Below are positions 49,244-63,693 of a DNA stretch of 64,000 nt, in pieces; positions within the stretch are counted from its first letter, which is position 1, and each line of letters opens with the position of its first letter. The notes beneath the pieces were generated by a model. That model made no database searches. It saw only the letters and a program-made list of their open reading frames with translations, and was not told the origin of the DNA. Both the position numbers and the translations under genes were made by a program. The stretch is from the NCBI GenBank assembly GCA_018402155.1, contig JAGYJG010000001.1, positions 1,880,501 to 1,944,500 on the forward strand. Reading direction: 5' to 3'. This stretch comes from Bacteroidia bacterium (lineage in GTDB: Bacteria; Bacteroidota; Bacteroidia; NS11-12g; UBA9320).

Positions 49244-50530
49244 TTACAGTTTTATGAGCTTTTTGCGCACAATCTGACCCTCAAATGTGCTGAATGTAGC
49301 AAAATAAGCTCCGCTTGCCCAATTGCTAACTTCTACATCATGCCAGTGTGAATTTAGGTTTACTTCTTTAAAAAAAACTTCTGAACCTTGAGCGTCTATT
49401 ATACGGAGTACACCTGCTACGGGCAGTTGCATTTTCCAATGCAGTAAATTAGTCACCGGATTACTCATTACCAAGTAATTATTAGTTAGTTTTTGTGATA
49501 TACTGGCCGTCGTTCTATTCACAGTTAGCTGCATACTCACAGGCAGATGGTCACTCATATTGTACAATGCAGAAAGAACTTCTGCAGGTGCAGAAGTATT
49601 ACCTGCGGCCGTTATGGTACCATTAAAGCTATTACCATCATTGCCAATTGCTATATAGGAGCCTCGCACATAGCCAAACCCTCGCGCATTATCTAGCACT
49701 TCTTGTCCACACAGTATAATATCGAAACGATCATCTAAACCACCACCACTATGACAGCCTCCGCTCACGCGAGTACTTTGCGTATGTATAGATGCAAACG
49801 CAGCATTGTTATTCCAAGAGCCTGAACTACTGATAGGGTCCTTAAAGCGAATTGCCCTGTTGGGGTGACCAAGCAGGTTTATAAATCCTTGTTCATTGCT
49901 AGTGTACATGTTAAAATCTCCAGAAAAAATATAGGACTTACTAGCATCATAGTTAGCTTCGTGGTAGCTCATAACAGCCTCCGTAGCCCTCGCTCTTTCG
50001 CTTGCGTTGGCTGATCCCGAACTCGCTTTTAGGTGAGCCACATAGCACACAAGCCAGGTAGTATCTCCAGCATCTAGCTCACTTTGATCAAGGTAATACA
50101 GCTCATAGACGTCTATCAAGCGAACCAGCGTAGTAGCGTTTAGTGCTCTATCTATTTGGTCTTGGCTATGGAGCACCAATTTATTTGTATTGTAATAAAG
50201 CATATTGGTCAGGCTACTATTTCCAGTATAATTTGCTTGTTTGTAATAGTTTCTGCCGTCTTTATTTAGCGCATTATCCAGTAATCTTTTGGCAGCAGTA
50301 CCTCCATCGCCGACTATTTCATTTACTGTTAAAATATCTGGTTTGGCGTAGCTCATTATAGTGCGCATATAGCTCTCTTTATCTGAAGGTCCATTATTAG
50401 ACACCGTACAAAACGATGTAATATTACGATAATTGAGTACATTATAATGCATGTATATCAAGGTATCGTTTATGTTTTGACCTAGTGCAAAAAAGGTTAC
50501 AAAAACAACGAGTAGCGAAAATTTTCTCAT
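49244..50530 (-). CDS. Secreted endonuclease/exonuclease/phosphatase-fold protein with T9SS domain
   Basis: 428 residues from ATG 50530 (signal MRKFSLLVVFVTFFALGQ). The metal-dependent EEP fold is complete: MHYNVLNY (Asn), DILTVNEIVGDGG (Glu), YIFSGDFNMYTSNEQ (Asp/Asn) and MSDHLPVSMQL (Asp-His pair). The last 80 residues (YLVMSNPVTNLLHWKM, then GAYFATFSTFEGQIVRKKLI) form a type A T9SS sorting domain. It is either a secreted DNase or a phosphodiesterase/phosphatase; substrate cannot be told. CAAAAGTA (50537-50544; TAnnTTTG on the minus strand) lies seven bases before the ATG. Confidence 0.92.
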   Translation of the reverse strand: MRKFSLLVVFVTFFALGQNINDTLIYMHYNVLNYRNITSFCTVSNNGPSDKESYMRTIMSYAKPDILTVNEIVGDGGTAAKRLLDNALNKDGRNYYKQANYTGNSSLTNMLYYNTNKLVLHSQDQIDRALNATTLVRLIDVYELYYLDQSELDAGDTTWLVCYVAHLKASSGSANASERARATEAVMSYHEANYDASKSYIFSGDFNMYTSNEQGFINLLGHPNRAIRFKDPISSSGSWNNNAAFASIHTQSTRVSGGCHSGGGLDDRFDIILCGQEVLDNARGFGYVRGSYIAIGNDGNSFNGTITAAGNTSAPAEVLSALYNMSDHLPVSMQLTVNRTTASISQKLTNNYLVMSNPVTNLLHWKMQLPVAGVLRIIDAQGSEVFFKEVNLNSHWHDVEVSNWASGAYFATFSTFEGQIVRKKLIKL

Positions 50531-50782
50531 AAAATTCAAAAGTAAGGCTTTAAATAGTATCCCAACATAAAGTTTCGCATTCAAAATAAAAAGATAGGCT
50601 GCCAGAGTAGTTCAATCAACCAAAAAAACAACCCTATATGAGAAATTTTCAGCATCATTTTCAAGACTGAGTTACTGTCTAATACCTTACATTGCGAGTG
50701 CGACATAAGAAGTTTAAACGAACCCCCAAATATGATCCAAGACTAAACATTTGCTCAACTATTTGTAATATTGCAGACTACA

Positions 50783-52603: not shown

Positions 52604-53731
52604 ATGAAAAAATCGATATACTTCTTAATTCTACTACTTCTTTTTGGCGCTTGTAAAGATGACGAACAAGAAACAGTAGCACCAATCCAAGAATACGTTG
52701 AAATTCCGGCATTTTATACTGGAGCAAATAGAGAAGTTCCGAATTTTACAAAAATAGCAGGTTCCACAGATAGAGTGGACAGTCCTCAAGACTTAGACTT
52801 TCATCCCACTCGTGAAAACGAACTATGGGTAGTACTCAAAGGTACCGATAACAGTGGAGGCAGCACCGTAACTATTAGTAATGCTGGCAAAGCGCAGCAA
52901 TCTACAGAATGGAGAAGAGATGGAAACGCTTGGCACTTTATGGCGTTAGTTTCTGCTATATCTTTTAGCAAAACCAATGAAAACTTTGGCACTGCTGCCA
53001 ATATACAAGACGCCAATAGACAAGGAGGCACCTTTTCTGGACCGTCCCTATGGAGCAGCGATATGAATGTATACGCAAAAGATCCCGGGACAGATGCCAA
53101 TGGAGATAGACTAAATGGAAGCCACCTTGATATGCTACACGGCAGCCCATATTCACTAGGTATAGAATCTGACGGAGACAATGCTTTTTGGGTTTACGAT
53201 GCCTACAACGGACACATCGCTTGGTATGATTTTGCCGAAGACCACGGCCCCGGCTACCACGACCACTCCGATGGTATTATTCATCGATATGACGAAATGG
53301 ACTTAGGAAGAGACGCTTCTGGGATACCATCTCATATCGTAGAAGACGATGCCTCTGGTATACTCTACATTTGCGATCCTGCCAATAAGAGAATTCTATG
53401 GATGAACACGTTGTCTGGCAGTATAAGAGAATCTGCGCCACTCATAAATGAGCTTCTAGCAAGCCATCAGCTGATGAAAAATGTAGAATGGGGAGTTTTC
53501 GCCGCAGAAAATATTCAAAAACCTTGCGGAATAGAGGTGCACGGCAATATCCTCTATGCCTCTGATAATGCAACCGGAGAAATAATAGCCTACCACAAAG
53601 AAACGAAAGAAGAACTTGCTCGAATAAACACCGGGGCAGAATCTATAATGGGTATAAAAACCGATAAAAATGGTTTTTTGTGGTATGTAGATGCAGACGC
53701 TAATACAGTAATGCGTATAGATCCAAAGTAG
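52604..53731 (+). CDS. Surface-type beta-propeller (NHL-like) lipoprotein
   Basis: 375 residues with a lipobox LLLFGAC (Cys 17) followed by KDDEQE, which resembles the K-(D/E)(D/E) export signal that sends Bacteroidota lipoproteins to the cell surface. The mature protein has repeated blade-like segments (for example DLDFHPTRENELWVVLKG, IVEDDASGILYICDPANKR, GIKTDKNGFLWYVDADANTV) typical of NHL/SMP-30-like propellers. A His-rich segment, DHGPGYHDHSDGIIHRY (about 210-226), could bind metal. First gene of the plus-strand metal island. Exact role unknown. Confidence 0.82.
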   Translation: MKKSIYFLILLLLFGACKDDEQETVAPIQEYVEIPAFYTGANREVPNFTKIAGSTDRVDSPQDLDFHPTRENELWVVLKGTDNSGGSTVTISNAGKAQQSTEWRRDGNAWHFMALVSAISFSKTNENFGTAANIQDANRQGGTFSGPSLWSSDMNVYAKDPGTDANGDRLNGSHLDMLHGSPYSLGIESDGDNAFWVYDAYNGHIAWYDFAEDHGPGYHDHSDGIIHRYDEMDLGRDASGIPSHIVEDDASGILYICDPANKRILWMNTLSGSIRESAPLINELLASHQLMKNVEWGVFAAENIQKPCGIEVHGNILYASDNATGEIIAYHKETKEELARINTGAESIMGIKTDKNGFLWYVDADANTVMRIDPK

Positions 53732-53778: not shown

Positions 53779-53811
53779 TTGGTTTATTCAACCAATTAAA
53801 CTATATATTTG
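53779..53811 (+). promoter_or_regulatory. Promoter with embedded operator-like palindrome, start of the metal island proper
   Basis: TTG (53779-53781), 22-base spacer, TATATTTG (53804-53811). The -33 side is embedded in a perfect inverted repeat TTGGTT-TATTC-AACCAA (53779-53795), a suitable repressor site. The ATG of the next gene starts five bases after the -7 element, so the mRNA is probably leaderless. Confidence 0.6.
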
Positions 53812-53816
53812 TGATA

Positions 53817-54245
53817 ATGTTTAGGAAATCACTGTTTTTGAAACTATTCGCCACCTTCATGAGCCTACTTGTGCTTATAGGTACGATTGGTATTCAAGCT
53901 GATTTTCACATTTGCCAAGGAAATATCAAAACTTTTAGTTTTTGGGGAAATGCACAAAAATGTTCGCCTATGGAGCTTAAAACGGCCTGCGAGCACAACT
54001 TTGACCACACCATAACTAAGAAAAAATGCTGCAATGACGAAGAAATGTTTAACAGCACTTCATTTCAGACAGAATTTTCAGCACGCGGTTCAGTCAACAA
54101 AAGTTTTGAAGTAGCGCTAAATGCCTATGTTTCAAACCATGTACTGAAAATAGCCCCTACCGTAGCAACGTGGACATTACCGCCACCACCCCTCATTGGT
54201 CAGCAAAAATCATTGATTATTGCTTTTCAGCAATATTTAATTTAG
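53817..54245 (+). CDS. Small Cys-rich exported protein, HYC_CC_PP type (copy 1)
   Basis: 142 residues from ATG 53817; a GTG six bases upstream overlaps the promoter. A membrane/signal segment (FMSLLVLIGTIGIQA) is followed by FHICQGN, a later ACEHNF, a KKCCND Cys pair and a C-terminal PPPPLI, the pattern behind the HYC_CC_PP family name in Bacteroidota. The His and Cys residues suggest metal binding in the periplasm, and these proteins are often encoded next to copper-related genes. A second, divergent copy is at 57767. Function unproved. Confidence 0.75.
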   Translation: MFRKSLFLKLFATFMSLLVLIGTIGIQADFHICQGNIKTFSFWGNAQKCSPMELKTACEHNFDHTITKKKCCNDEEMFNSTSFQTEFSARGSVNKSFEVALNAYVSNHVLKIAPTVATWTLPPPPLIGQQKSLIIAFQQYLI

Positions 54246-54387: not shown

Positions 54388-54606
54388 ATGAAACTAATAT
54401 CTATAAAAACAACCTTATTACTAACAATTGTATGTACTATGTCAGCGTGCAATAACAGCACCAATTCAACAATAGACCAAACCGGAGCCGCCTATACATC
54501 AGCCTACGTATGCCCTATGCACTGCGAAGGTAGCGGCAGCAATTCAGCAGGCATATGCCCTACCTGTGAAATGGACTACGTAAAAAATAATCAAAAAGAA
54601 AAATAA
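54388..54606 (+). CDS. Small heavy-metal-binding-domain lipoprotein
   Basis: 72 residues from ATG 54388; the longer frame upstream adds a part with no sense. Lipobox VCTMSAC (Cys about 17). The mature part is a single heavy-metal-binding (HMBD) hairpin: YVCPMHCEGSGSNSAGICPT, then CEMDYV, giving CPMH and CPTC pairs instead of the usual CPMHP...CPKCGM. Such domains are found at the N-termini of copper ATPases and in small periplasmic metal proteins. Second of the closely spaced genes of the metal island. Confidence 0.82.
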   Translation: MKLISIKTTLLLTIVCTMSACNNSTNSTIDQTGAAYTSAYVCPMHCEGSGSNSAGICPTCEMDYVKNNQKEK

Positions 54607-54638: not shown

Positions 54639-55598
54639 ATGAAAAAAATAGCAACACTTACTGTGGTAGTCTTACTAGCACTTGCCGCCAATGCACAAAA
54701 AGACGTCAGATTTACCATTAACCATCTATTGGGGGACAAGCCATTTGCTTTTAACACGGCCATAACCAATGATATTGGCGATGAGCTCAAAATAGCACGA
54801 TTAGAATACTACATATCTGACATAAAAATAGTGCACGACGGAGGACAAATAACTCCTGCAAGTGATGTGTATATATTAGCCAAAGGAGACAAGAAAGACA
54901 CCATAAGCTTAGGAAATTTTGATGTAACAATAATAGAAGCGATTCAATTTGCTGTGGGCGTAGACCCTGGTGTGAACAATGGAGACCCAAGTGCTTGGGC
55001 TTCTGTTCATCCTCTTGCACCCAAAAATCCGTCTATGCATTGGGGTTGGGCATCCGGCTATCGCTTTGTGGCTATAGAAGGAAAATCTGGCACTACTTTC
55101 AATCAAGACTTTCAGATACATGCCTTGGGAAATAAAAATTACTTCAAACAAAGCATAAACACTGAAGCCGTAGAAGTAAACAATAGTTTGGTAATAGCAA
55201 TCAATGCGGACTATACCAAAGCCGTTTCCGGTATTTCTATGGCTGGTGGACTCATAGAGCATGGAGAAACTAATGAAGCTGCAGAATGCCTCAGAAACTA
55301 CCAGCTACATGTATTTACAAATAACTTAGGAGAATCTAGTGTTGCCAGCAAAAGGGAGTTGAATATACCCAACGCTTTTAGTGTACTTCCTGTGCCAAGC
55401 ATTGGACAAATTACCTTGAAGGTAAGAAATACCGAATTTGCCAATGCTACCTTCCGCGTCACCAACTTACTAGGTACAGAAATGGCAACTGGCCAAGTGA
55501 ACACAGATACATCCCTTACTATAACCACCAAAGGCATTTACTTTGTAACCTTAACGCAAAATGGTATGACATCTACCAAAAAAATCATCATTAACTAA
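54639..55598 (+). CDS. MbnP-like protein with T9SS sorting domain (copy 1)
   Basis: 319 residues, signal peptide VVLLALAANAQ. Residues about 20-230 match the MbnP family: FTINHLLGDKPFAFNT, ARLEYYISDIKI, and the core SMHWGWASGYRFVAIEG (about 128-144), which carries the WxW residues. In methanotrophs MbnP binds Cu(I) using a tryptophan-derived kynurenine made by MbnH. From about 235 the protein adds a type A T9SS C-terminal domain (SVLPVPSIGQITLKV, then KGIYFVTLTQNGMTSTKKII), so it is sent to the cell surface. Next gene, a diheme cytochrome c, begins three bases after the stop. Confidence 0.88.
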   Translation: MKKIATLTVVVLLALAANAQKDVRFTINHLLGDKPFAFNTAITNDIGDELKIARLEYYISDIKIVHDGGQITPASDVYILAKGDKKDTISLGNFDVTIIEAIQFAVGVDPGVNNGDPSAWASVHPLAPKNPSMHWGWASGYRFVAIEGKSGTTFNQDFQIHALGNKNYFKQSINTEAVEVNNSLVIAINADYTKAVSGISMAGGLIEHGETNEAAECLRNYQLHVFTNNLGESSVASKRELNIPNAFSVLPVPSIGQITLKVRNTEFANATFRVTNLLGTEMATGQVNTDTSLTITTKGIYFVTLTQNGMTSTKKIIIN

Positions 55599-55601
55599 AA
55601 A

Positions 55602-56624
55602 ATGCTCAGTCGGCAAATTTCATATTTCTGTTTACTTTGCCTCTGGTGCACCGGTTGTACAGCAGACCATGCGCTGCAGCCTGTAGAACACTACTCCCAG
55701 AATATGCCGAGTGATTTTGAGCAAATAGCCTATCCCAAAGACAATGAATACACTCCAGAAAGGTGGGCATTGGGGAAAAAATTGTTTTACGACACAGTAC
55801 TATCGCTAGACAGTACTGTGAGCTGTGCATCGTGTCACAAACCAGATTTTGCTTTTGGGGATAATGTGGCGCTGAGTAGCGGTATACAAAACCGGCTTAG
55901 CGAGCAAAACTCTCCTTCATTAGCCAATGTAGCCTACCACCCCTACTTTACCCGTGCTGGCGGTGTACCCACTTTAGAAATGCAGATACTGGTCCCTATA
56001 CAAGAGCACAATGAGTTTAATTTTAATATGGTACTAGCCGCTGAGCGTTTAACACAAGATAGTACGTATGTAGCCATGAGCTGGAGGGCATACAACCGAG
56101 CGCCAGATGCTTTTGTAATAACCCGAGCCATCGCAAATTTTGAACGAGAACTCATCAGTAAAAATAGTTTTTTTGATCAATATTATTTTAAAAAAATAGC
56201 CAAGTTATCTGCCGAAGAACATGCCGGAATGGAACTTTTCTACAGTGAAAAAACCAACTGTTTCCAGTGTCATGGTGGCCCAGATTTTACTAATTACTCA
56301 TTTGAAAATAATGGTTTGTATCTACTTTACAAAGACAAAGGAAGAAAACGACTAACGGGAAAAGATGATGACGATGCACTATTTAAAGTGCCAACACTAA
56401 GAAACATAGCTGAAAGTCAGCCATATATGCACGACGGATCTATTTCAAACCTAGCAGAGGTAGTTGATCACTACAATTCGGGCGGGAAAATGCACAAAAA
56501 TCAAAGTCCTCTGATACAGCCACTTCACCTCACACCAGAACAGCAAGTACAATTAATTGCTTTTTTGAATACCTTGACGGATGAGGAATTTTTAACAAAT
56601 AAAGAACATAAAGAAGAAAAATGA
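55602..56624 (+). CDS. Diheme cytochrome c of the MbnH/MauG/CcpA family (copy 1)
   Basis: 340 residues, lipoprotein signal (LWCTGC, Cys about 19). Two c-type heme sites: CASCHKPDFAFGDN (about 75-88) and CFQCHGGPDF (about 223-232). Further family marks: WALGKKLFYDTVLSLDSTVS and PYMHDGSISNLAEVVDHYNS. Proteins of this class reduce H2O2 (CcpA) or oxidise aromatic residues on a partner protein (MauG, MbnH). Coupling to the MbnP-like gene points to the latter. Ends with a 4-base overlap into the next diheme gene. Confidence 0.92.
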   Translation: MLSRQISYFCLLCLWCTGCTADHALQPVEHYSQNMPSDFEQIAYPKDNEYTPERWALGKKLFYDTVLSLDSTVSCASCHKPDFAFGDNVALSSGIQNRLSEQNSPSLANVAYHPYFTRAGGVPTLEMQILVPIQEHNEFNFNMVLAAERLTQDSTYVAMSWRAYNRAPDAFVITRAIANFERELISKNSFFDQYYFKKIAKLSAEEHAGMELFYSEKTNCFQCHGGPDFTNYSFENNGLYLLYKDKGRKRLTGKDDDDALFKVPTLRNIAESQPYMHDGSISNLAEVVDHYNSGGKMHKNQSPLIQPLHLTPEQQVQLIAFLNTLTDEEFLTNKEHKEEK

Positions 56625-57706
56625 ATTATAAAGTACTAATAGTATATTTTGTAGGCGCCATTACCTTGGTAACAGGATGCATGGACAACGTTGATGAGCT
56701 ACCCCAAGGAATAGTGCAAGATGAGACCCCTTATAATATACAATATGGACAATTTCCTACACCTAGTATAGCAGCAGACAACCCACTGACCATAGAGGGA
56801 GTAAAACTAGGTAGGATGCTATTTTATGATAAAAAACTATCGGGAGATGGAACGCAGGCGTGTGCAAGCTGCCACCTACAAGCGTATGCTTTTACAGATC
56901 CTGCACAGTTTTCTACTGGTATACGTGGGGTTAAAGGAAAAAGAAATGCTATGAGTATTTTCAATATGGCTTGGAATAACAATGGATTTTTTTGGGATGG
57001 TCAATCAACGCTATTAAGACACCAATCTCTGCTGCCTATACTAGACGAGCTAGAAATGGACGAAACCCTCGAAAACGTAGTAGCCAAACTCTCTGAGCAC
57101 GAGTCTTATAAAAATCAGTTTATTCGAGCTTTTGGTTCTGAGGATATCACACCAGAAAAAATGGGATTAGCCTTGGAACAATTTATGAATTCCATTACCT
57201 CTACAAACGCACGATACGATGACTTTCTGCAAGATTCAACTGTATTTACTGCCAGTGAAAAACGCGGATTAAAACTCTTTAATACAGAGTACAACCCGTT
57301 TTTTCCAGAGTTGAGCGGTGCAGACTGCCAACACTGCCATAGTGGATTCAATTTTGAAAATGACAGGTATATGAACAATGGTTTGGACGAAGCTTTTGAT
57401 GACTTTGGTAGAGGCGCTGTAACCGGCAAAACAGCAGACAATGGAAAATTTAAAGTAACCAGTTTGAGAAACATCGCCCTAACTGCACCCTATATGCATG
57501 ATGGTAGATTTAGCACACTAGAAGAAGTGGTGGAGCACTACAACTCTGGCTTAAAAGCTTCAGCTACGCTAGACCCTGCACTAAACCAAACGAGAGCTAC
57601 TGGACTAATGCTAACAACCCAAGATAAGAAAGACCTTGTAGCGTTTCTTAAAACACTTACAGACAAAGACTTAATAACTAACCCAAATTATTCCGACCCA
57701 TTTTGA
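56621..57706 (+). CDS. Diheme cytochrome c of the MbnH/MauG/CcpA family (copy 2)
   Basis: 361 residues with lipobox LVTGC. Heme sites CASCHLQAYAFTDPAQF (about 88-104) and CQHCHSGFNFEND (about 239-251), plus GVKLGRMLFYDKKLSGDGTQ and APYMHDGRFSTLEEVVEHYN. It is more like the third copy (62173) than the first, for example in QFSTGIRGVKGKRNAMSI. Overlaps the upstream gene by four bases. Which residue provides the distal ligand to the second heme, and therefore peroxidase versus MauG-like activity, cannot be told without alignment. Confidence 0.92.
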   Translation: MNYKVLIVYFVGAITLVTGCMDNVDELPQGIVQDETPYNIQYGQFPTPSIAADNPLTIEGVKLGRMLFYDKKLSGDGTQACASCHLQAYAFTDPAQFSTGIRGVKGKRNAMSIFNMAWNNNGFFWDGQSTLLRHQSLLPILDELEMDETLENVVAKLSEHESYKNQFIRAFGSEDITPEKMGLALEQFMNSITSTNARYDDFLQDSTVFTASEKRGLKLFNTEYNPFFPELSGADCQHCHSGFNFENDRYMNNGLDEAFDDFGRGAVTGKTADNGKFKVTSLRNIALTAPYMHDGRFSTLEEVVEHYNSGLKASATLDPALNQTRATGLMLTTQDKKDLVAFLKTLTDKDLITNPNYSDPF

Positions 57707-57766: not shown

Positions 57767-58156
57767 ATGAAACACGTGAAAAAACTAAGCTCATATCTAT
57801 TTATCCTTTTGTATTTACTTCCTAGTGTAGGCTTACAAGTGGATTTGACCTATTGCTGTGGTCAACTTGAAACAATAGGTATAACCCATGAAGCAAAAAC
57901 TCCTTCGCCCAACTGCTGCACTATGAGTAATATCCAAGAAACATGTGATACTCAAATAGAACTTATTGTACCCCAAGAATTACTGGAAGCTTTAGCCACT
58001 GAAACCTCAGAAATAGATCAACCATGCAATGTCTTAGCACCTCGTTTTGGAATCAAAAATCAATTACAACTGCACTCTAAAATTCACTCGTTTCACCTCC
58101 ACACATATCTCACAAAACCGCCTACCCAGGCTCAGTTACAAGTATTTTTGTGTTAG
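57767..58156 (+). CDS. Small Cys-rich exported protein, HYC_CC_PP type (copy 2)
   Basis: 129 residues with a signal/membrane segment (YLFILLYLLPSVGLQ) then YCCGQLE, PNCCTMSN, ETCDTQ and QPCNVL, and a C-terminal KPPTQ and HSFHLHTY. It resembles the protein encoded at 53817 in plan (exported, Cys pairs, late His and Pro-Pro) though the residues differ, with one extra Cys-Cys pair. It separates the first MbnP-peroxidase group from the TonB receptor gene. Metal binding is plausible; function unproved. Confidence 0.7.
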   Translation: MKHVKKLSSYLFILLYLLPSVGLQVDLTYCCGQLETIGITHEAKTPSPNCCTMSNIQETCDTQIELIVPQELLEALATETSEIDQPCNVLAPRFGIKNQLQLHSKIHSFHLHTYLTKPPTQAQLQVFLC

Positions 58157-58394: not shown

Positions 58395-60671
58395 ATGAAA
58401 AATATACTAACAGTCATTCTGATGCTGCTTGCCACGCAAAGCCACGCACAGCATGAACAACATATAATAAAAGGAACCGTTTCCTTACAAGACGGCGAGA
58501 ATTTGAAGCCACTACCTGGGGCATTTGTACACTGGACAGAAACTCCTGGCGGAGTATTTACCAATGCCGAAGGAGAGTTTGTCATAGAACACCACCACGG
58601 CCCCGTCATTCTAATTGCTTCATTTGCCTCACACACCAATGATACCATTGAGCTGAAAGACATGATAACTCCCATTCAATTTGTGCTAAAATCAGACAAT
58701 GAACTGGCCGGAGCTACGATACTGGCAAAGCGCATAAATTATGGTCTGAGCAAACTAGACCCTAGAACAACAGTACTACTTGGCGAACGAGAATTTCAAA
58801 AAGCAGCATGTTGTAATCTTTCCGAAAGTTTTGAAAATGCTCCTGCAATAGATGTAAGTTTCAGCGACGCAGTAACGGGTACCAAACAAATAAAGATGCT
58901 AGGTCTTGATGGGTTTTACACTCTTATAGGACGCGAGTACATGCCCAGTGTGCGAACACTAAACTCTTACTATGGACTAAGTCACATACCTGCAGCGTGG
59001 GTAGATGGCATACAGATAACCAAAGGAGCTGGCAGCGTGGTAAATGGATATGAAAGTATAGCAGGCCAAATAAATATAGAGCTCAAAAAACCTTTTGGCA
59101 AAGAGAAATTTTTGCTTGACCAATTTGTATCTGAAGGTGGCAGAGCAGAAACAGATTTGATGTATGTAAAAGACATCAACAAATACGTAGCTACCTCGCT
59201 GCTCGCTCGCTATGGGGTACGCGGCTTAGAAAATGACAGAAATGGTGACGGATTTTTGGATATGCCCAAAGGCCAAGATTTCAAAATAATGAATCGCTGG
59301 CAGTTTTATACCGAAAAAGGCTTAGAAGGAACAGCCAATATTAGTTTTCATAACAACGAGCAAAACGCTGGTCAAACGGCCTTCTATAATGGCGATAATA
59401 GCGCCTACGGAATAGGTATAAACTCACAAGTAATGGATGCATTTGCAAAACTAGGCTACGCAAGAAAAAATCGTGCACTTAGCAGTTTTGGCTCGCAATA
59501 CAACTTTAACAACACAAAAATGACTAGTATATACGGTTCTAATACCAATCAAAATGTGTACGATGCACAAACCAACCAAGCATATGTAAACCTACTTTAC
59601 GAAAGCTATATAGGCAACTCCTTTCACCAATACCAAACAGGAGTATCCTTTTTGTACGATAAAATGCACGAGACCTATACCGGCTCTGGACTCACGGAAC
59701 CCTTCCGGTTTGAACGAGAGGAGGCTGTGCCAGGCGCATTTTTTGAATACACATATAAGCCCAAAGAAACCTTTAGCTTGGTAGGTGGTATACGTGCAGA
59801 CTATAACTCCATATACGGCCTATCTATAACCCCCAGATTTCATGGAAAATACCGATTCAATAAAGACAAAACAGCACTTCGAATGTCTGCCGGGATGGGA
59901 CGTAGAACCAGTAATCCATTGGCACAAAACCAGTTCATTTTTGCCAGCGGCAGGAGCTTACACTTTGATATGACAGACCCTAGCTTAGCCTATGGACTAG
60001 AGCAAGAAGTAGCCATTAACTCTGGTCTGAGCTTTGAGCATGAGTTTAGACTCACCTATATGCCAGCTACCTTTGGCATAGACTATTTTAACACTACTTT
60101 TTTGCAAGAGGTAGTGGTAGACCGAGAGATTGACCAAGAAGTGCGATTTTATAATATGGAAAATGGCACACGAGCCAATAGCCTACAAATGCAACTAGAC
60201 CTACAACCGGCACGAAGAACAGAAGTACGAATAGCCTACAGAATGTTTGATGTGGAAACTATCTACAAAAACTCTGAAAATGCCGCTTCCCTTACTCGCA
60301 CATTGGCCAAACCATTCATTTCTAGAAACAGGGCTTTCATTAGTGCCACACAAAATACAAGAAACGATTGGCAGTTTAGCACCACTGCTACATGGTACGG
60401 ACCACAACGAATAGCAGGTAAATTTGAGCAAAATATTGGTCAAGATGTAGCTGTTTACTCACCAAGTTTTTACAACTGGAATATGCAAGTAAGCAAAACA
60501 TTTAAGAAAAAATTTGAAGTATATGTAGGAGGAGAAAACTTATTAAATTTCAAACAAGAAAACCCTATCCAAGAGGCTGCCAATCCGTTTGACAAAGATT
60601 TTGATGCTGGACTGGTTTGGGGACCTATCTTTGGCAGAATGATATACGGAGGATTTAGATTTAGAATTTAA
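58395..60671 (+). CDS. TonB-dependent outer-membrane receptor with Cys-Cys plug motif
   Basis: 758 residues. Signal peptide (ILMLLATQSHAQ), a carboxypeptidase-like regulatory domain (about 22-100), a plug domain and a 22-strand barrel ending in GGFRFRI. The plug begins with REFQKAACCNLSESFENAPA (about 135-154) and contains VDGIQITKGAGSVVNGYESI; the paired cysteines at its start are typical of a subgroup found beside copper-handling genes in Bacteroidota. It probably imports copper or a copper complex, powered by TonB. No SusD-like partner is present, so it is not a glycan system. Confidence 0.92.
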   Translation: MKNILTVILMLLATQSHAQHEQHIIKGTVSLQDGENLKPLPGAFVHWTETPGGVFTNAEGEFVIEHHHGPVILIASFASHTNDTIELKDMITPIQFVLKSDNELAGATILAKRINYGLSKLDPRTTVLLGEREFQKAACCNLSESFENAPAIDVSFSDAVTGTKQIKMLGLDGFYTLIGREYMPSVRTLNSYYGLSHIPAAWVDGIQITKGAGSVVNGYESIAGQINIELKKPFGKEKFLLDQFVSEGGRAETDLMYVKDINKYVATSLLARYGVRGLENDRNGDGFLDMPKGQDFKIMNRWQFYTEKGLEGTANISFHNNEQNAGQTAFYNGDNSAYGIGINSQVMDAFAKLGYARKNRALSSFGSQYNFNNTKMTSIYGSNTNQNVYDAQTNQAYVNLLYESYIGNSFHQYQTGVSFLYDKMHETYTGSGLTEPFRFEREEAVPGAFFEYTYKPKETFSLVGGIRADYNSIYGLSITPRFHGKYRFNKDKTALRMSAGMGRRTSNPLAQNQFIFASGRSLHFDMTDPSLAYGLEQEVAINSGLSFEHEFRLTYMPATFGIDYFNTTFLQEVVVDREIDQEVRFYNMENGTRANSLQMQLDLQPARRTEVRIAYRMFDVETIYKNSENAASLTRTLAKPFISRNRAFISATQNTRNDWQFSTTATWYGPQRIAGKFEQNIGQDVAVYSPSFYNWNMQVSKTFKKKFEVYVGGENLLNFKQENPIQEAANPFDKDFDAGLVWGPIFGRMIYGGFRFRI

Positions 60672-60676
60672 TAAAT

Positions 60677-61405
60677 ATGAAAGAAACACACAATATGAAC
60701 GAAACACACCTATCTATAGCAGGTATAAGCTGTATGAGCTGTGTAAGCAAAATAGAAAAAGCTTTATATAGCAACACCGCTATAAAACAAGTAACCATAA
60801 ATAAAGAAAATGGAGCAGCTATACTAAAAGGCAATAGCCTGCCGCACCTTGATATTATAACAGACCTTATAGAAAGTGCAGGAAACTATACAGTAGGTGC
60901 AACATCAAAAACACCAGAAGCGTCTACCAAAAGTGACCGTAGTTACAAACCATTGGTCATTATTGCCTTATATTTGTTAGGCACAACGCTTCTTATAGAG
61001 GTAAGCTCAGTCGGGTTTTTGTGGCATAGGTGGATGTCCAACTTTATGGCGGGATTTTTTCTCGTATTTTCGTTCTTTAAAATCCTAGACATTCCAGCTT
61101 TTGCCAAAGCATACCAATCGTATGACCTTTTGGCAGCCAAAGCTCCTTGGTATGGCTACGTATTTCCATTTATAGAAATGGGACTAGGTGTAGCATATTT
61201 ACTCTATTCTGACCATAGCGTTACACATTTAGTAACTGCTATCGTTATGTTTGTGAGTCTTTTAGGAGTAGTGCGCTCAGTGGTGCGAAAATCTGAGATA
61301 CAATGTGCCTGTCTTGGAACTGTTTTTAACCTGCCCATGAGCTATGTTACCATTATAGAAGACGGTATAATGCTGATAATGGCACTCATAATGTACTTAA
61401 ATTAA
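60677..61405 (+). CDS. HMA domain fused to a MauE-like membrane protein
   Basis: 242 residues in two parts. Residues about 7-75 are a heavy-metal-associated ferredoxin-like domain with the metal motif GISCMSC (CxxC) at about 14-20. After a short linker four membrane segments follow with MauE/DoxX-like sequence (FKILDIPAFAKAYQSYDLLA, PWYGYVFPFIEMGLGVAYLL) and a CAC pair near the C-terminus (SEIQCACLGT). MauE assists maturation of methylamine dehydrogenase, with the heme protein MauG acting on the same enzyme. Here the fused HMA domain suggests metal or redox delivery to the island's heme proteins (inference). Gene starts six bases after the receptor. Confidence 0.85.
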   Translation: MKETHNMNETHLSIAGISCMSCVSKIEKALYSNTAIKQVTINKENGAAILKGNSLPHLDIITDLIESAGNYTVGATSKTPEASTKSDRSYKPLVIIALYLLGTTLLIEVSSVGFLWHRWMSNFMAGFFLVFSFFKILDIPAFAKAYQSYDLLAAKAPWYGYVFPFIEMGLGVAYLLYSDHSVTHLVTAIVMFVSLLGVVRSVVRKSEIQCACLGTVFNLPMSYVTIIEDGIMLIMALIMYLN

Positions 61406-61412
61406 TATAAAA

Positions 61413-62171
61413 ATGAAAAACTTACTATATCTACTCTTAGGCTTACTCCTCATCGCCGTTTCGTCTTGTGATGACGATGATATTCCAGTAATACCTGACC
61501 CAACAGAACAAACTACTGGAAACCTCACAATCACTATGAATCATGTATATGGTAGCTCCGATATGCACTACAACCAAACCGTAAATTTACCAAGCACCGA
61601 GCAAGTGGAATTTAAAAGGCTCTACTATTTACTTAGCGATTTTTATCTGCGAAATGAGGCTGGTACTAAAGTAGTACTGCCCAAACAATACGCCCTAATA
61701 GAAGATCATAATGATAAAGTTTCATTTACACTTACGGATATCCCCTTTGGTACATATAGCGCCATCGGATTTTCTATAGGATTAGATTCTGTGACAAACC
61801 ACGGCAATCCCAATCAGTATGAGACTTCCCACCCACTATCACCTATCAATAATTCGCTGCATTGGAATTGGGAAGGTGGCTACATCTTTACAGCAATAGA
61901 AGGTAAGGTAATACCTAGCAATGAAACCTTTGTTTTTCATCTGGCAGGCGTGCAACATAAACTAGATTATGAACTGAAAGTACAACTTACTTGTTCTACT
62001 ACACCACAGTACGCCACCATAACCTATGATGTAAAAGAAGTGTTTCAAAATCCTGAAATATACACCATAGCAGAAGATGGAACTAGCTCGCATAGCACAA
62101 CAAGTCCTGTTGTCATAAAATTGATAAATAACATGGGCAACATAATGACAGGAATTACTGTAAAGAAATAG
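61413..62171 (+). CDS. MbnP-like lipoprotein (copy 2)
   Basis: 252 residues. Lipobox AVSSC (Cys 19) followed by DDDD, an acidic signal typical of surface-exposed Bacteroidota lipoproteins. The MbnP core is present: LTITMNHVYGSSDMHYNQTV, FKRLYYLLSDFYLRNE and SLHWNWEGGYIFTAIEG (about 148-164) with the WxW residues in the same place as the first copy. No T9SS domain. The diheme cytochrome gene follows after one base. It shares the MbnP core but reaches the surface by a different route from copy 1 (inference from the signals). Confidence 0.88.
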   Translation: MKNLLYLLLGLLLIAVSSCDDDDIPVIPDPTEQTTGNLTITMNHVYGSSDMHYNQTVNLPSTEQVEFKRLYYLLSDFYLRNEAGTKVVLPKQYALIEDHNDKVSFTLTDIPFGTYSAIGFSIGLDSVTNHGNPNQYETSHPLSPINNSLHWNWEGGYIFTAIEGKVIPSNETFVFHLAGVQHKLDYELKVQLTCSTTPQYATITYDVKEVFQNPEIYTIAEDGTSSHSTTSPVVIKLINNMGNIMTGITVKK

Positions 62172-62172
62172 A

Positions 62173-63282
62173 ATGAAAAAACTAATCGTATATCTACTCT
62201 TAGCCAGCAGCGTCATCGCTTGCAAAGATGTTGTAAATGAAGTGCCAGATACCCCTTTTAGCACAACGCCTTATACGTTTAGCTTCAATAAAACAGTGCT
62301 ACCTCCGGTGCGTATACCAAAAGATAATCCACTAACACAAGAAGGGGTACAACTTGGCCGCATGCTGTTTTATGACCCAATACTAAGTGCAGATAGCACC
62401 CAAAGTTGCGCATCATGTCACAATCAAACAGATGCTTTCACTGACAATGGACGCCAGTTTAGCACTGGTATACGAGGCATTACAGGCACCAGAAATGCAA
62501 TGTCTATTGTAAATATGATGTGGCACTTGGATGGATTTTTCTGGGATGGTCGCTCCGATGCATTAAAACACCTGGCACTGATACCCATAGAAGATCCTAC
62601 AGAAATGGATGAAACAATAGGGAATGTAGTGGCAAAGCTCAACCGCTCACCTATGTATCAAGAAGCATTTAAAAAAGCCTTCGGAACAGGAGCCATAGGA
62701 GACGAAATCATTGGCAAGGCGCTGGAGCAATTTATGCTAACAATGGTAAGTGGCAATTCTAAATTTGACCGCGTAGTAATGCTCAAAACAGAGGAGTTTA
62801 CAGTGCAAGAGCGCACAGGACAAACTATTTTTAACCAAGAGGCTACGCCAATAAATGAGGAGCTCGACCCAAAAAATCCCAAAAATTTTGGCGGAGATTG
62901 TTTTCATTGCCACGGTAATAGTCTCTTTATGAGCCGCAATTATATGAGTAATGGGTTGCCAAATGTAACCGATTTAGGACGTGGTGCTACAAATGGAAAC
63001 CCACGAGATAATTACAAATTTAAAACACCTACGCTGCGCAACATTGAAAAGACAGCCCCTTATATGCATGATGGTAGGTTTAACACCCTAGAGGAAGTGG
63101 TACAGCACTACCTGAGCGATATGACAAATGCAACCGCAAACTTGGGAGATGAACCAAACATGCACGCACTACGGGACTCTGTATACCTCAGCGAAGAACA
63201 TAAAGCCGCTTTGGTAGCATTTTTGAAGACCCTAACTGACGACGATTTTTTAACCAATGAAGCTTATTCAAATCCATTTTAA
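62173..63282 (+). CDS. Diheme cytochrome c of the MbnH/MauG/CcpA family (copy 3)
   Basis: 369 residues, lipobox SSVIAC. Heme sites CASCHNQTDAFTDNG (about 79-93) and CFHCHGNSLFMSRN (about 241-254), with GVQLGRMLFYDPILSADSTQ and APYMHDGRFNTLEEVVQHYL. Clearly paralogous to the gene at 56621. Located one base after the second MbnP-like gene, so MbnP-MbnH pairing recurs within 8 kb. As with the others, peroxidase or MauG-like activity is not decided here. Confidence 0.92.
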   Translation: MKKLIVYLLLASSVIACKDVVNEVPDTPFSTTPYTFSFNKTVLPPVRIPKDNPLTQEGVQLGRMLFYDPILSADSTQSCASCHNQTDAFTDNGRQFSTGIRGITGTRNAMSIVNMMWHLDGFFWDGRSDALKHLALIPIEDPTEMDETIGNVVAKLNRSPMYQEAFKKAFGTGAIGDEIIGKALEQFMLTMVSGNSKFDRVVMLKTEEFTVQERTGQTIFNQEATPINEELDPKNPKNFGGDCFHCHGNSLFMSRNYMSNGLPNVTDLGRGATNGNPRDNYKFKTPTLRNIEKTAPYMHDGRFNTLEEVVQHYLSDMTNATANLGDEPNMHALRDSVYLSEEHKAALVAFLKTLTDDDFLTNEAYSNPF

Positions 63283-63321: not shown

Positions 63322-63693
63322 ATGAAACAAATTTTTTTAGCCATTTTAATGATAGCCACACTAGGTGTGACTGCAAAAAACATCACCAAAACCATTTTAG
63401 TAAAAGGCGAATGTGGTGAATGTAAAGAGAAAATAGAAGCGGCTCTAGACATGCCGGGAGTAAGTTTTGCAGAATGGAACGAAGAGACCAAAATGCTAAC
63501 TATACGTTTCAACGACAAAAAAATAACAGAAGATGACATACACAACACTATCAGTAATTTGGGCTATGCCACAGACCGCCTAGAAGCCAACAAAGCTAGC
63601 CAGGCCAAACTCTCTAAGTGCTGCCAACCAAAGGAAGTGAAGAAAGCATGTGATGATAAAAAAAGCTGCTGCTCAGGCACAAAAAAACAATAG
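63322..63693 (+). CDS. Exported HMA-domain protein with Cys-rich tail
   Basis: 123 residues. A short signal-like N-terminus (LAILMIATLGVTA) precedes an HMA domain with GECGECKEKIEAALDMPGV (CxxC about 32-35), followed by a helical linker and a tail with CCQPKE, KKACDD and KSCCSGTKKQ. The CC pairs resemble metal-scavenging tails. Because of the signal it probably acts in the periplasm or envelope, unlike cytosolic CopZ. Last gene of the island; a strong terminator begins 18 bases after the stop. Confidence 0.85.
   Translation: MKQIFLAILMIATLGVTAKNITKTILVKGECGECKEKIEAALDMPGVSFAEWNEETKMLTIRFNDKKITEDDIHNTISNLGYATDRLEANKASQAKLSKCCQPKEVKKACDDKKSCCSGTKKQ

Follow-up and report, generated by a model that had tools for sequence, protein, structure and literature searches.

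A type IX-tagged MbnP-like protein and its MbnH-like diheme partners, a predicted extracellular copper cassette of Bacteroidota

Introduction

MbnP of Methylosinus trichosporium (7l6g; families PF20243 and TIGR04052) is the described protein that most resembles the one analysed here. In the work of Manesis in 2021, the diheme enzyme MbnH reportedly oxidises the first Trp of the WxW motif of MbnP to kynurenine, and MbnP is reported to hold Cu(I) by His and Met. Another solved structure, 6e1c, carries the name 'Di-heme enzyme' (TIGR04039) and is taken by us to be MbnH.

In methanotrophs, MopE and CorA are surface copper proteins with kynurenine that are encoded beside a diheme MauG-like protein, SACCP and CorB, respectively (PMC3912023). 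Both are functional analogues of MbnP, and a kynurenine copper site is described in CorA (PMC3912023). CorB is predominantly periplasmic although its partner CorA sits on the surface, and SACCP occurs on the surface, co-localised with MopE (PMC3912023). MbnP is not markedly similar to MopE and CorA in sequence (PMC3621798). MopE and CorA are evidence that a copper site of this kind functions extracellularly.

Cargo proteins of the type IX secretion system (T9SS) of P. gingivalis enter the periplasm by Sec and fold there; they cross by means of the C-terminal domain (CTD), which PorU cleaves off, with attachment to A-LPS (PMC5445135). Among the literature matches listed for MbnP/MbnH, for the metallo-mystery pair and for type IX secretion with copper or metal, none described a T9SS-tagged MbnP; most subscription journals were outside the scope of this search. 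In this study, we analysed a stretch of 64,000 nucleotides of a Bacteroidia genome (hereafter, the window), which encodes such a protein, named T9-MbnP, together with two MbnH-like enzymes, named alpha and beta (Table 1).

T9-MbnP resembles M. trichosporium MbnP in its fold, in a Met two residues before the first Trp of WxW, in a downstream His and in an adjoining MbnH-like gene, and differs in having a C-terminal T9SS domain, one Cys against a four-Cys motif, and 39.3 of the 140 bits that the MbnP equivalog demands. The plan of MopE/CorA with SACCP/CorB is likewise predicted for T9-MbnP, whereas MopE/CorA have two His ligands and, in the passages used here, no T9SS tag is described for them (PMC3912023). 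Like the type A cargo of T9SS (the CTDs of NucA, FspA, RemA, RemZ and RgpB), T9-MbnP has a Sec signal and a C-terminal beta-sandwich; unlike those, it is a predicted metalloprotein with a site that probably needs enzymatic oxidation.

Results

Architecture of T9-MbnP

A preliminary description of the window had proposed that an MbnP core is fused to a type A T9SS domain. This was borne out by PF20243, TIGR04183 and PF18962 and by the recognition of both folds on a structural model. The order of the parts was Sec signal peptide, MbnP domain, linker and sorting domain. When the T9SS C-terminal family was searched against the protein, as that description had proposed, TIGR04183 matched residues 251-319 with 35.6 bits (cut-off 23, E 6.9e-9), and PF18962 matched residues 251-318 with 30.1 bits (cut-off 27). 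The domain had been assigned to the C-terminal 85 residues; the match stood, and the length had to be shortened to about 70 residues. The MbnP equivalog of NCBIfam, TIGR04052, gave a score under its cut-off, and we accordingly use the name MbnP-like.

Table 1. Features of the T9-MbnP cassette and its surroundings (positions in the window)
Feature	Position	Strand	Basis or remark
HYC_CC_PP family protein	53811..54245	+	NF047658 43 bits, cut-off 28
Small lipoprotein-like heavy-metal-binding-domain (HMBD) protein, directly upstream of T9-MbnP	54388..54606	+	PF19335 24.2 bits, cut-off 23.6; start codon inferred
T9-MbnP (MbnP-like with T9SS type A C-terminal sorting domain)	54639..55598	+	319 aa, ATG to TAA, one Cys
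Sec (type I) signal peptide MKKIATLTVVVLLALAANAQ of T9-MbnP, ends NAQ, without lipobox	54639..54698	+	Read from sequence; helix 2-17 in the model
MbnP domain of T9-MbnP, residues 21-202	54699..55244	+	PF20243 102.2 bits, cut-off 27
S132-M-H-W-G-W137 motif of T9-MbnP: W135 predicted kynurenine site, M133 predicted copper ligand	55032..55049	+	Alignment
His161 of T9-MbnP, predicted copper ligand (H in MVHVG of 7l6g)	55119..55121	+	Equivalence read by eye across two alignments
T9SS type A sorting domain of T9-MbnP, residues 251-319	55389..55595	+	TIGR04183, PF18962, 8glk_D
MbnH-like diheme enzyme, alpha clade	55602..56624	+	CCP_MauG (PF03150) 147.5 bits, cut-off 25.6; two CxxCH; lipoprotein-like start GC-TADH
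Arg118 of alpha, where beta and CcPs have Trp	55953-55955	+	Alignments
MbnH-like diheme enzyme, beta clade	56621..57706	+	CCP_MauG (PF03150) 176.7 bits, cut-off 25.6; two CxxCH; lipoprotein-like start GC-MDNV
Trp125 of FFWDGQ in beta	56993-56995	+	Alignments
Second HYC_CC_PP-like protein	57767..58156	+	NF047658 22.4 bits, under cut-off 28
TonB-dependent receptor	58395..60671	+	PF00593, PF13715 over cut-off
HMA domain fused to MauE-like membrane domain	60677..61405	+	PF00403, PF07291
Second MbnP-like protein, untagged lipoprotein	61413..62171	+	PF20243 123.5 bits; SLHWNW; C-DDDD after lipobox
MbnH-like diheme enzyme of second pair (FFWDGR)	62173..63282	+	CCP_MauG 180.5 bits; tree
CopZ/MerP-like metal-binding protein, signal-peptide-like start	63322..63693	+	Best NCBIfam match CopZ 34.5 bits, under cut-off 91

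The fusion is real and not due to chance, because a relatives scan with T9-MbnP gave 76 loci, at most of which the match spanned almost the full query, and because 46 of 47 aligned tagged members matched TIGR04183 at E <= 0.001.

An AlphaFold model built with 47 aligned homologues had a mean pLDDT of 91.5 and a pTM of 0.71, and its lowest-confidence stretch was the motif block 131-140 (pLDDT 66). The MbnP half matched M. trichosporium MbnP (7l6g_D, Z 16.2, rmsd 2.9, 202 aligned). Residues 246-319 matched translocon-bound CTDs (NucA, RemZ, FspA and RemA), the best match being 8glk_D (Z 10.9, rmsd 1.9, 72 residues). Foldseek gave the same two matches (7l6g_B, 2.9e-6; 8glk_D, 1.2e-4). Searches of solved structures returned the CTD and no MbnP structure with the single sequence, and CTDs only with the profile of tagged members; the 7l6g match was reached through a profile of untagged relatives and through the fold comparison.

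Predicted copper site

The stretch SMHWGWASGYRF, quoted in the preliminary description, corresponds to residues 132-143 of T9-MbnP. The profile of untagged relatives aligned with 7l6g at GMAWNW and MVHVG, which correspond to S-M133-H-W135-G-W137 and H161 of T9-MbnP. Thus the WxW motif (W135, W137), the Met two residues before it (M133) and the downstream His (H161) are all present, while the four-Cys motif, which appears in the name of 7l6g, is absent and one Cys only is found. Across the alignment of 47 tagged members, M133, W135, G136 and W137 were invariant and H161 was conserved in at least 90%. M133, W135, W137 and H161 are the putative equivalents of the MbnP site residues reported by Manesis in 2021.

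Kynurenine formation and copper binding in T9-MbnP are presumed from this likeness, and we infer the copper role from the family and the neighbouring genes; kynurenine probably forms at W135. The heme modification raised in the preliminary description has to be restated, the reaction reported for MbnP being oxidation of the first Trp of WxW to kynurenine, which the diheme enzyme MbnH carries out. The kynurenine site of CorA agrees with this correction (PMC3912023).

Export and location

The genome of the window comprises 2.49 Mb in 10 contigs and is 99.63% complete. SprA (2459.6 bits), PorU (1172.9 bits) and PorV (400.6 bits) were all found over their cut-offs, and 86 proteins, including T9-MbnP, matched TIGR04183. 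SprA was also present in all 12 other census genomes with T9-MbnP. Thus, T9-MbnP combines a CTD over two curated cut-offs with a Sec signal without lipobox and a host having SprA, PorU and PorV, as expected of type A cargo. Since the MbnP core is joined to a type A domain in such a genome, the protein would be expected to leave the cell and be anchored at the surface, and T9-MbnP is very probably exported by the T9SS.

The view that MbnP is usually periplasmic, on which the preliminary description relied, proved too narrow, because 103 of 138 untagged MbnP open reading frames (ORFs) matched a simple lipobox pattern and CorA and MopE, its functional analogues, occur at the surface or are secreted (PMC3912023, PMC3621798). 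By the same simple pattern, the 100 long-tailed ORFs comprised 92 with a Sec-type start without lipobox, 3 with a lipobox and 5 undecided. The tag and the lipobox therefore nearly exclude each other (3/100 tagged against 103/138 untagged, duplicates included).

A nuclease-like protein at 49244-50584 on the reverse strand likewise bears a type A domain of the T9SS (TIGR04183 27.1 bits, cut-off 23); its match to MnuA was far below the cut-off.

Distribution of tagged MbnPs

A sample of 395 genomes from the phylum of the window contained 97 with a PF20243 match, the phylum being that of GTDB, which takes in a genome titled Ignavibacteria by NCBI; three matches under the Pfam cut-off were left out of the fetched loci. 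In this census, 12 genomes besides that of the window had an MbnP with a tail of at least 85 residues. A home CTD model, made with the CTDs of 20 other proteins in the window's genome, recognised 10 of these 12 and missed L196 and L218. Within the order of the window, MbnP occurred in 103 of 108 genomes, the tag being scored only for 13 fetched long frames. The titles in the relatives scan included Saprospiraceae, Flavobacteriales, Salibacteraceae, Chitinophagales and Ignavibacteria. The tagged MbnP is thus a widespread group and is not peculiar to the window's genome.

All fetched loci together contained 100 long-tailed MbnP ORFs, 96 of them with a CTD match, and 138 ORFs without tail, duplicates included. 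Of these 238 ORFs, 219 entered a quick tree of MbnP cores after duplicate, short or X-rich cores were removed, and the tagged forms made one group of 92 rows (SH-aLRT 86). Two untagged rows within it were ORFs cut by the end of a locus or contig: L181__3, which is complete and tagged in L221, and L065__3. Repeated independent gain of the CTD, which we also considered, is unsupported, both untagged rows being cut ORFs. The 92 distinct tagged cores all carried M[H/Y]WGW (91 MHWGW, 1 MYWGW), whereas 115 untagged cores with WxW showed 36 five-letter variants, MHWGW being one of them (10 cores); another 17 untagged cores did not match the WxW pattern. The single tree group and the nearly uniform motif, set against the 36 untagged variants, point to a tag acquired once and then kept. 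Going beyond the preliminary description, the tagged forms make up a single widespread group that has its own set of diheme enzymes, one or two in number.

Some minor features were seen in this set. The untagged cores L195, L206, L211, L204, L216 and L219, without WxW, have a GGGYH[Y/F]M[R/Q] stretch, and in L279, L282 and L283, refetched from the genomes of three such cores, an MbnH-like gene still adjoins MbnP. Long N-terminal extensions precede the MbnP domain in L202 (517 aa), L209 (402 aa), L229 (397 aa) and L198 (370 aa). One tagged MbnP (L100) lies on a contig titled as a Euryarchaeota archaeon MAG; this bin title may be wrong, since L100 groups with Flavobacteriales rows.

Diheme partners of T9-MbnP

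In the window, 3 bases separate mbnP-T9 from alpha, and alpha and beta overlap by 4 bases. The best solved relative of both enzymes was 6e1c (E 9.2e-42 for alpha, 3.6e-55 for beta), with two CxxCH. Their scores against the MbnH equivalog TIGR04039 (262.9 and 268.3 bits, respectively) were under the cut-off of 362.85, and hence we call them MbnH-like. The cassette differs from MbnH and MauG in having two enzymes beside one target, in the Arg of alpha where 6e1c has Trp, and in these scores.

The next gene downstream was MbnH-like for 90 of 100 tagged and 126 of 138 untagged MbnP ORFs, and none of 292 MbnH-like ORFs matched the home CTD model at E 1e-3. Of the 162 distinct loci that extend 1.75 kb or more downstream, two or more MbnH-like genes were found in 47 of the 74 tagged and in 3 of the 88 untagged ones; Fisher's test gave p 1.2e-17, which treats related loci as independent and was not used as proof. 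One of the three untagged loci, L094, looks like a broken tagged copy, because tblastn covered query residues 1-319 despite an MbnP ORF of 125 aa.

A quick tree was built with 178 MbnH-like proteins out of 260 rows, groups larger than 60 being thinned at random; in it, alpha and beta formed separate supported groups. The alpha clade (60 rows, support 96) comprised 54 first-position, 4 second-position and 2 unpaired enzymes, and the beta clade (52 rows, support 99) comprised 42 second-position, 7 first-position, 1 third-position and 2 unpaired enzymes. Outside the tree, labels were given by home HMMs made from the alpha and beta groups of that tree; by these, the 74 tagged loci consisted of 46 with both enzymes (4 in the order beta-alpha), 14 with alpha alone, 5 with beta alone, 8 with neither and 1 with two alphas. 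Tagged MbnP, alpha and beta all occur in a culturable strain, Lewinella cohaerens DSM 23179 (L060). Because the relatives scan could be biased, the 12 census loci were refetched with longer flanks; the next MbnH-like gene was nearest the alpha model in all 12, and beta then followed in 7. Two MbnH-like genes in a row occurred in 1 of 27 untagged control loci, which were picked by hand and not at random. The exception, L285, had been picked with its two enzymes already seen (L194), so that the other 26, with none, are the fairer control. In L285 itself (G045:C26, 6026-8871), an untagged, lipoprotein-like MbnP precedes two MbnH-like genes that come closest to the alpha and beta models but lack the Arg and FWDG motifs of these.

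The two clades differed at the Trp of FWDG, a motif known from bacterial cytochrome c peroxidases; the residue was Trp in 52 of 52 beta rows and Arg in 55 of 59 alpha rows (otherwise 2 Ser, 1 Thr and 1 Lys); in the MbnH-like partners of untagged MbnPs it was Trp in 46 of 61. In MauG and CcP, the Trp at this site is positioned between the hemes. Arg118 of the window's alpha fell on the Trp of 6e1c and 3o5c in pairwise alignments read by eye. Among the five census alphas without beta behind, Arg was present in four and not in L255. Both CxxCH motifs were kept in 58 of 59 alpha and 51 of 52 beta rows. The pair is a natural comparison for the role of the FWDG Trp in MauG-like enzymes.

The MbnH-like partner of the second MbnP of the window was sister to beta (58-row group, support 97), and in genome G109 (L254, G109:C53:62500-71000) the order was untagged MbnP, beta, tagged MbnP and alpha. 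These two observations suggest an origin of the three-gene cassette from two neighbouring MbnP/MbnH-like pairs, with loss of one MbnP, and the order in L254 is possibly the ancestral arrangement.

The window's genome has four CCP_MauG ORFs (five matches, two in one ORF), three of them in the window. The fourth, a MauG-like diheme protein (G000:C1:1061800-1062228, L266), had no MbnP within the 4 kb fetched and has FWDSR at the Trp site.

Proposed order of events and alternatives

The analysis established the architecture, the two folds on the model, the T9SS parts, the conservation of Met, WxW and His, the grouping of the tagged forms and the linkage to alpha, often with beta. We consider it fairly likely that T9-MbnP leaves through the T9SS, is anchored at the surface, binds Cu(I) and has a maturation cassette of its own. 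Sec would carry it to the periplasm, where it would fold; alpha, with or without beta, would oxidise W135 to kynurenine and thereby form the copper site; SprA-PorV would export the folded protein by its CTD; and PorU would cut off the CTD and attach the protein to surface polysaccharide. Copper would be bound outside and then taken up or kept away from the cell. Since T9SS cargo fold in the periplasm (PMC5445135), oxidation there followed by export is the simplest order, and we lean towards modification before export. The mainly periplasmic location of CorB also speaks for this explanation (PMC3912023). Counting against it are the scores under the equivalog cut-offs, the single Cys, the Arg of alpha, the acidic lipobox residues, the surface location of SACCP and the pLDDT of 66 at the motif.

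The order could be reversed if MbnH-like lipoproteins were flipped outward and oxidised W135 on the cell surface after export, as SACCP, co-localised with MopE there, may do (PMC3912023). Many lipoprotein-like partners are indeed acidic after the Cys, resembling the export signals SDDDD or K-(D/E)2 (PMC5080379), and could face outward for that reason. However, these counts (17/32 at position 1 and 24/35 at position 2 after the lipobox) come without a background rate and say little, the window's alpha (CTADH) has no acidic run, and the periplasmic folding of T9SS cargo (PMC5445135) argues for the earlier step; surface modification is unlikely. A location in the periplasm throughout, with a CTD that is vestigial or a beta-sandwich arising by chance, would fit the modest signal in the window's copy (PF18962 30.1 against 27) and the two of 12 census members missed by the home CTD model, but is scarcely credible given the TIGR04183 matches of 46 of 47 members, SprA in 12 of 12 genomes and the structural match of the CTD.

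The division of labour between the two enzymes was also considered. Beta might make kynurenine while alpha performs another oxidation or passes electrons, or metal might be bound without kynurenine. The separate supported groups and the exchange at one site (Arg in 55/59 alpha, Trp in 52/52 beta rows) are in keeping with different jobs. Nevertheless, both groups keep two CxxCH (58/59, 51/52), and in 5 of the 12 census loci alpha is not directly followed by beta (in L254 beta lies just upstream, beside the untagged MbnP), so that some loci would have to manage with alpha alone; we consider different jobs doubtful. More speculative, and rather improbable, is a two-enzyme maturation in which the constant partner alpha, with Arg for the FWDG Trp, oxidises differently from beta, and two successive protein-based modifications build the extracellular copper site, both of which must be complete before the cargo is admitted to the type IX translocon. 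As for function, an exported T9-MbnP might serve copper protection, sensing or a matrix role and not uptake. The rarity of TonB receptor homologues (2 of 83 tagged loci) and the commoner small metal-binding proteins (HMBD in 16, CopZ-like in 12 loci) favour such a role; nothing speaks directly against it, and the sequence does not separate uptake from protection. We regard it as possible, though somewhat less than an even prospect.

In the explanation that we prefer, with modification in the periplasm and export by the T9SS, T9-MbnP should leave the cell by a route that genetics can shut off cleanly, and with none of the MbnH-like ORFs seen here tagged, the order of events becomes addressable. 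Because the cassette is spread over several Bacteroidota families and Ignavibacteriota, it may be part of how these bacteria handle copper.

Neighbourhood and second MbnP

A homologue of the HMBD protein was found within 4 kb upstream in 15, and of the HYC_CC_PP protein in 14, of 83 tagged loci; these numbers are low because only 46 of the 83 have 4 kb upstream. The CopZ-like protein occurred in 12 of the 83 and the TonB receptor homologue in 2. All neighbour counts come from single-sequence searches, and a few of the 83 loci are one place fetched twice. The TonB receptor was rejected as a general partner on this count, only 42 of 83 loci reaching about 7.5 kb downstream, and no PDB match was obtained for it at 1e-5; in the window's genome it is a possible route for the captured metal. 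An NHL/Vgb-like lipoprotein (52604-53731) was dropped as a cassette member (8/83 loci).

A whole-genome search found two MbnPs in the window's genome, both in the window, and both may end up outside the cell. The second had no sorting domain by the Pfam and NCBIfam profiles, and in its motif, SLHWNW, Leu replaces Met. The four Asp residues after its lipobox Cys are similar to the surface-export signal SDDDD.
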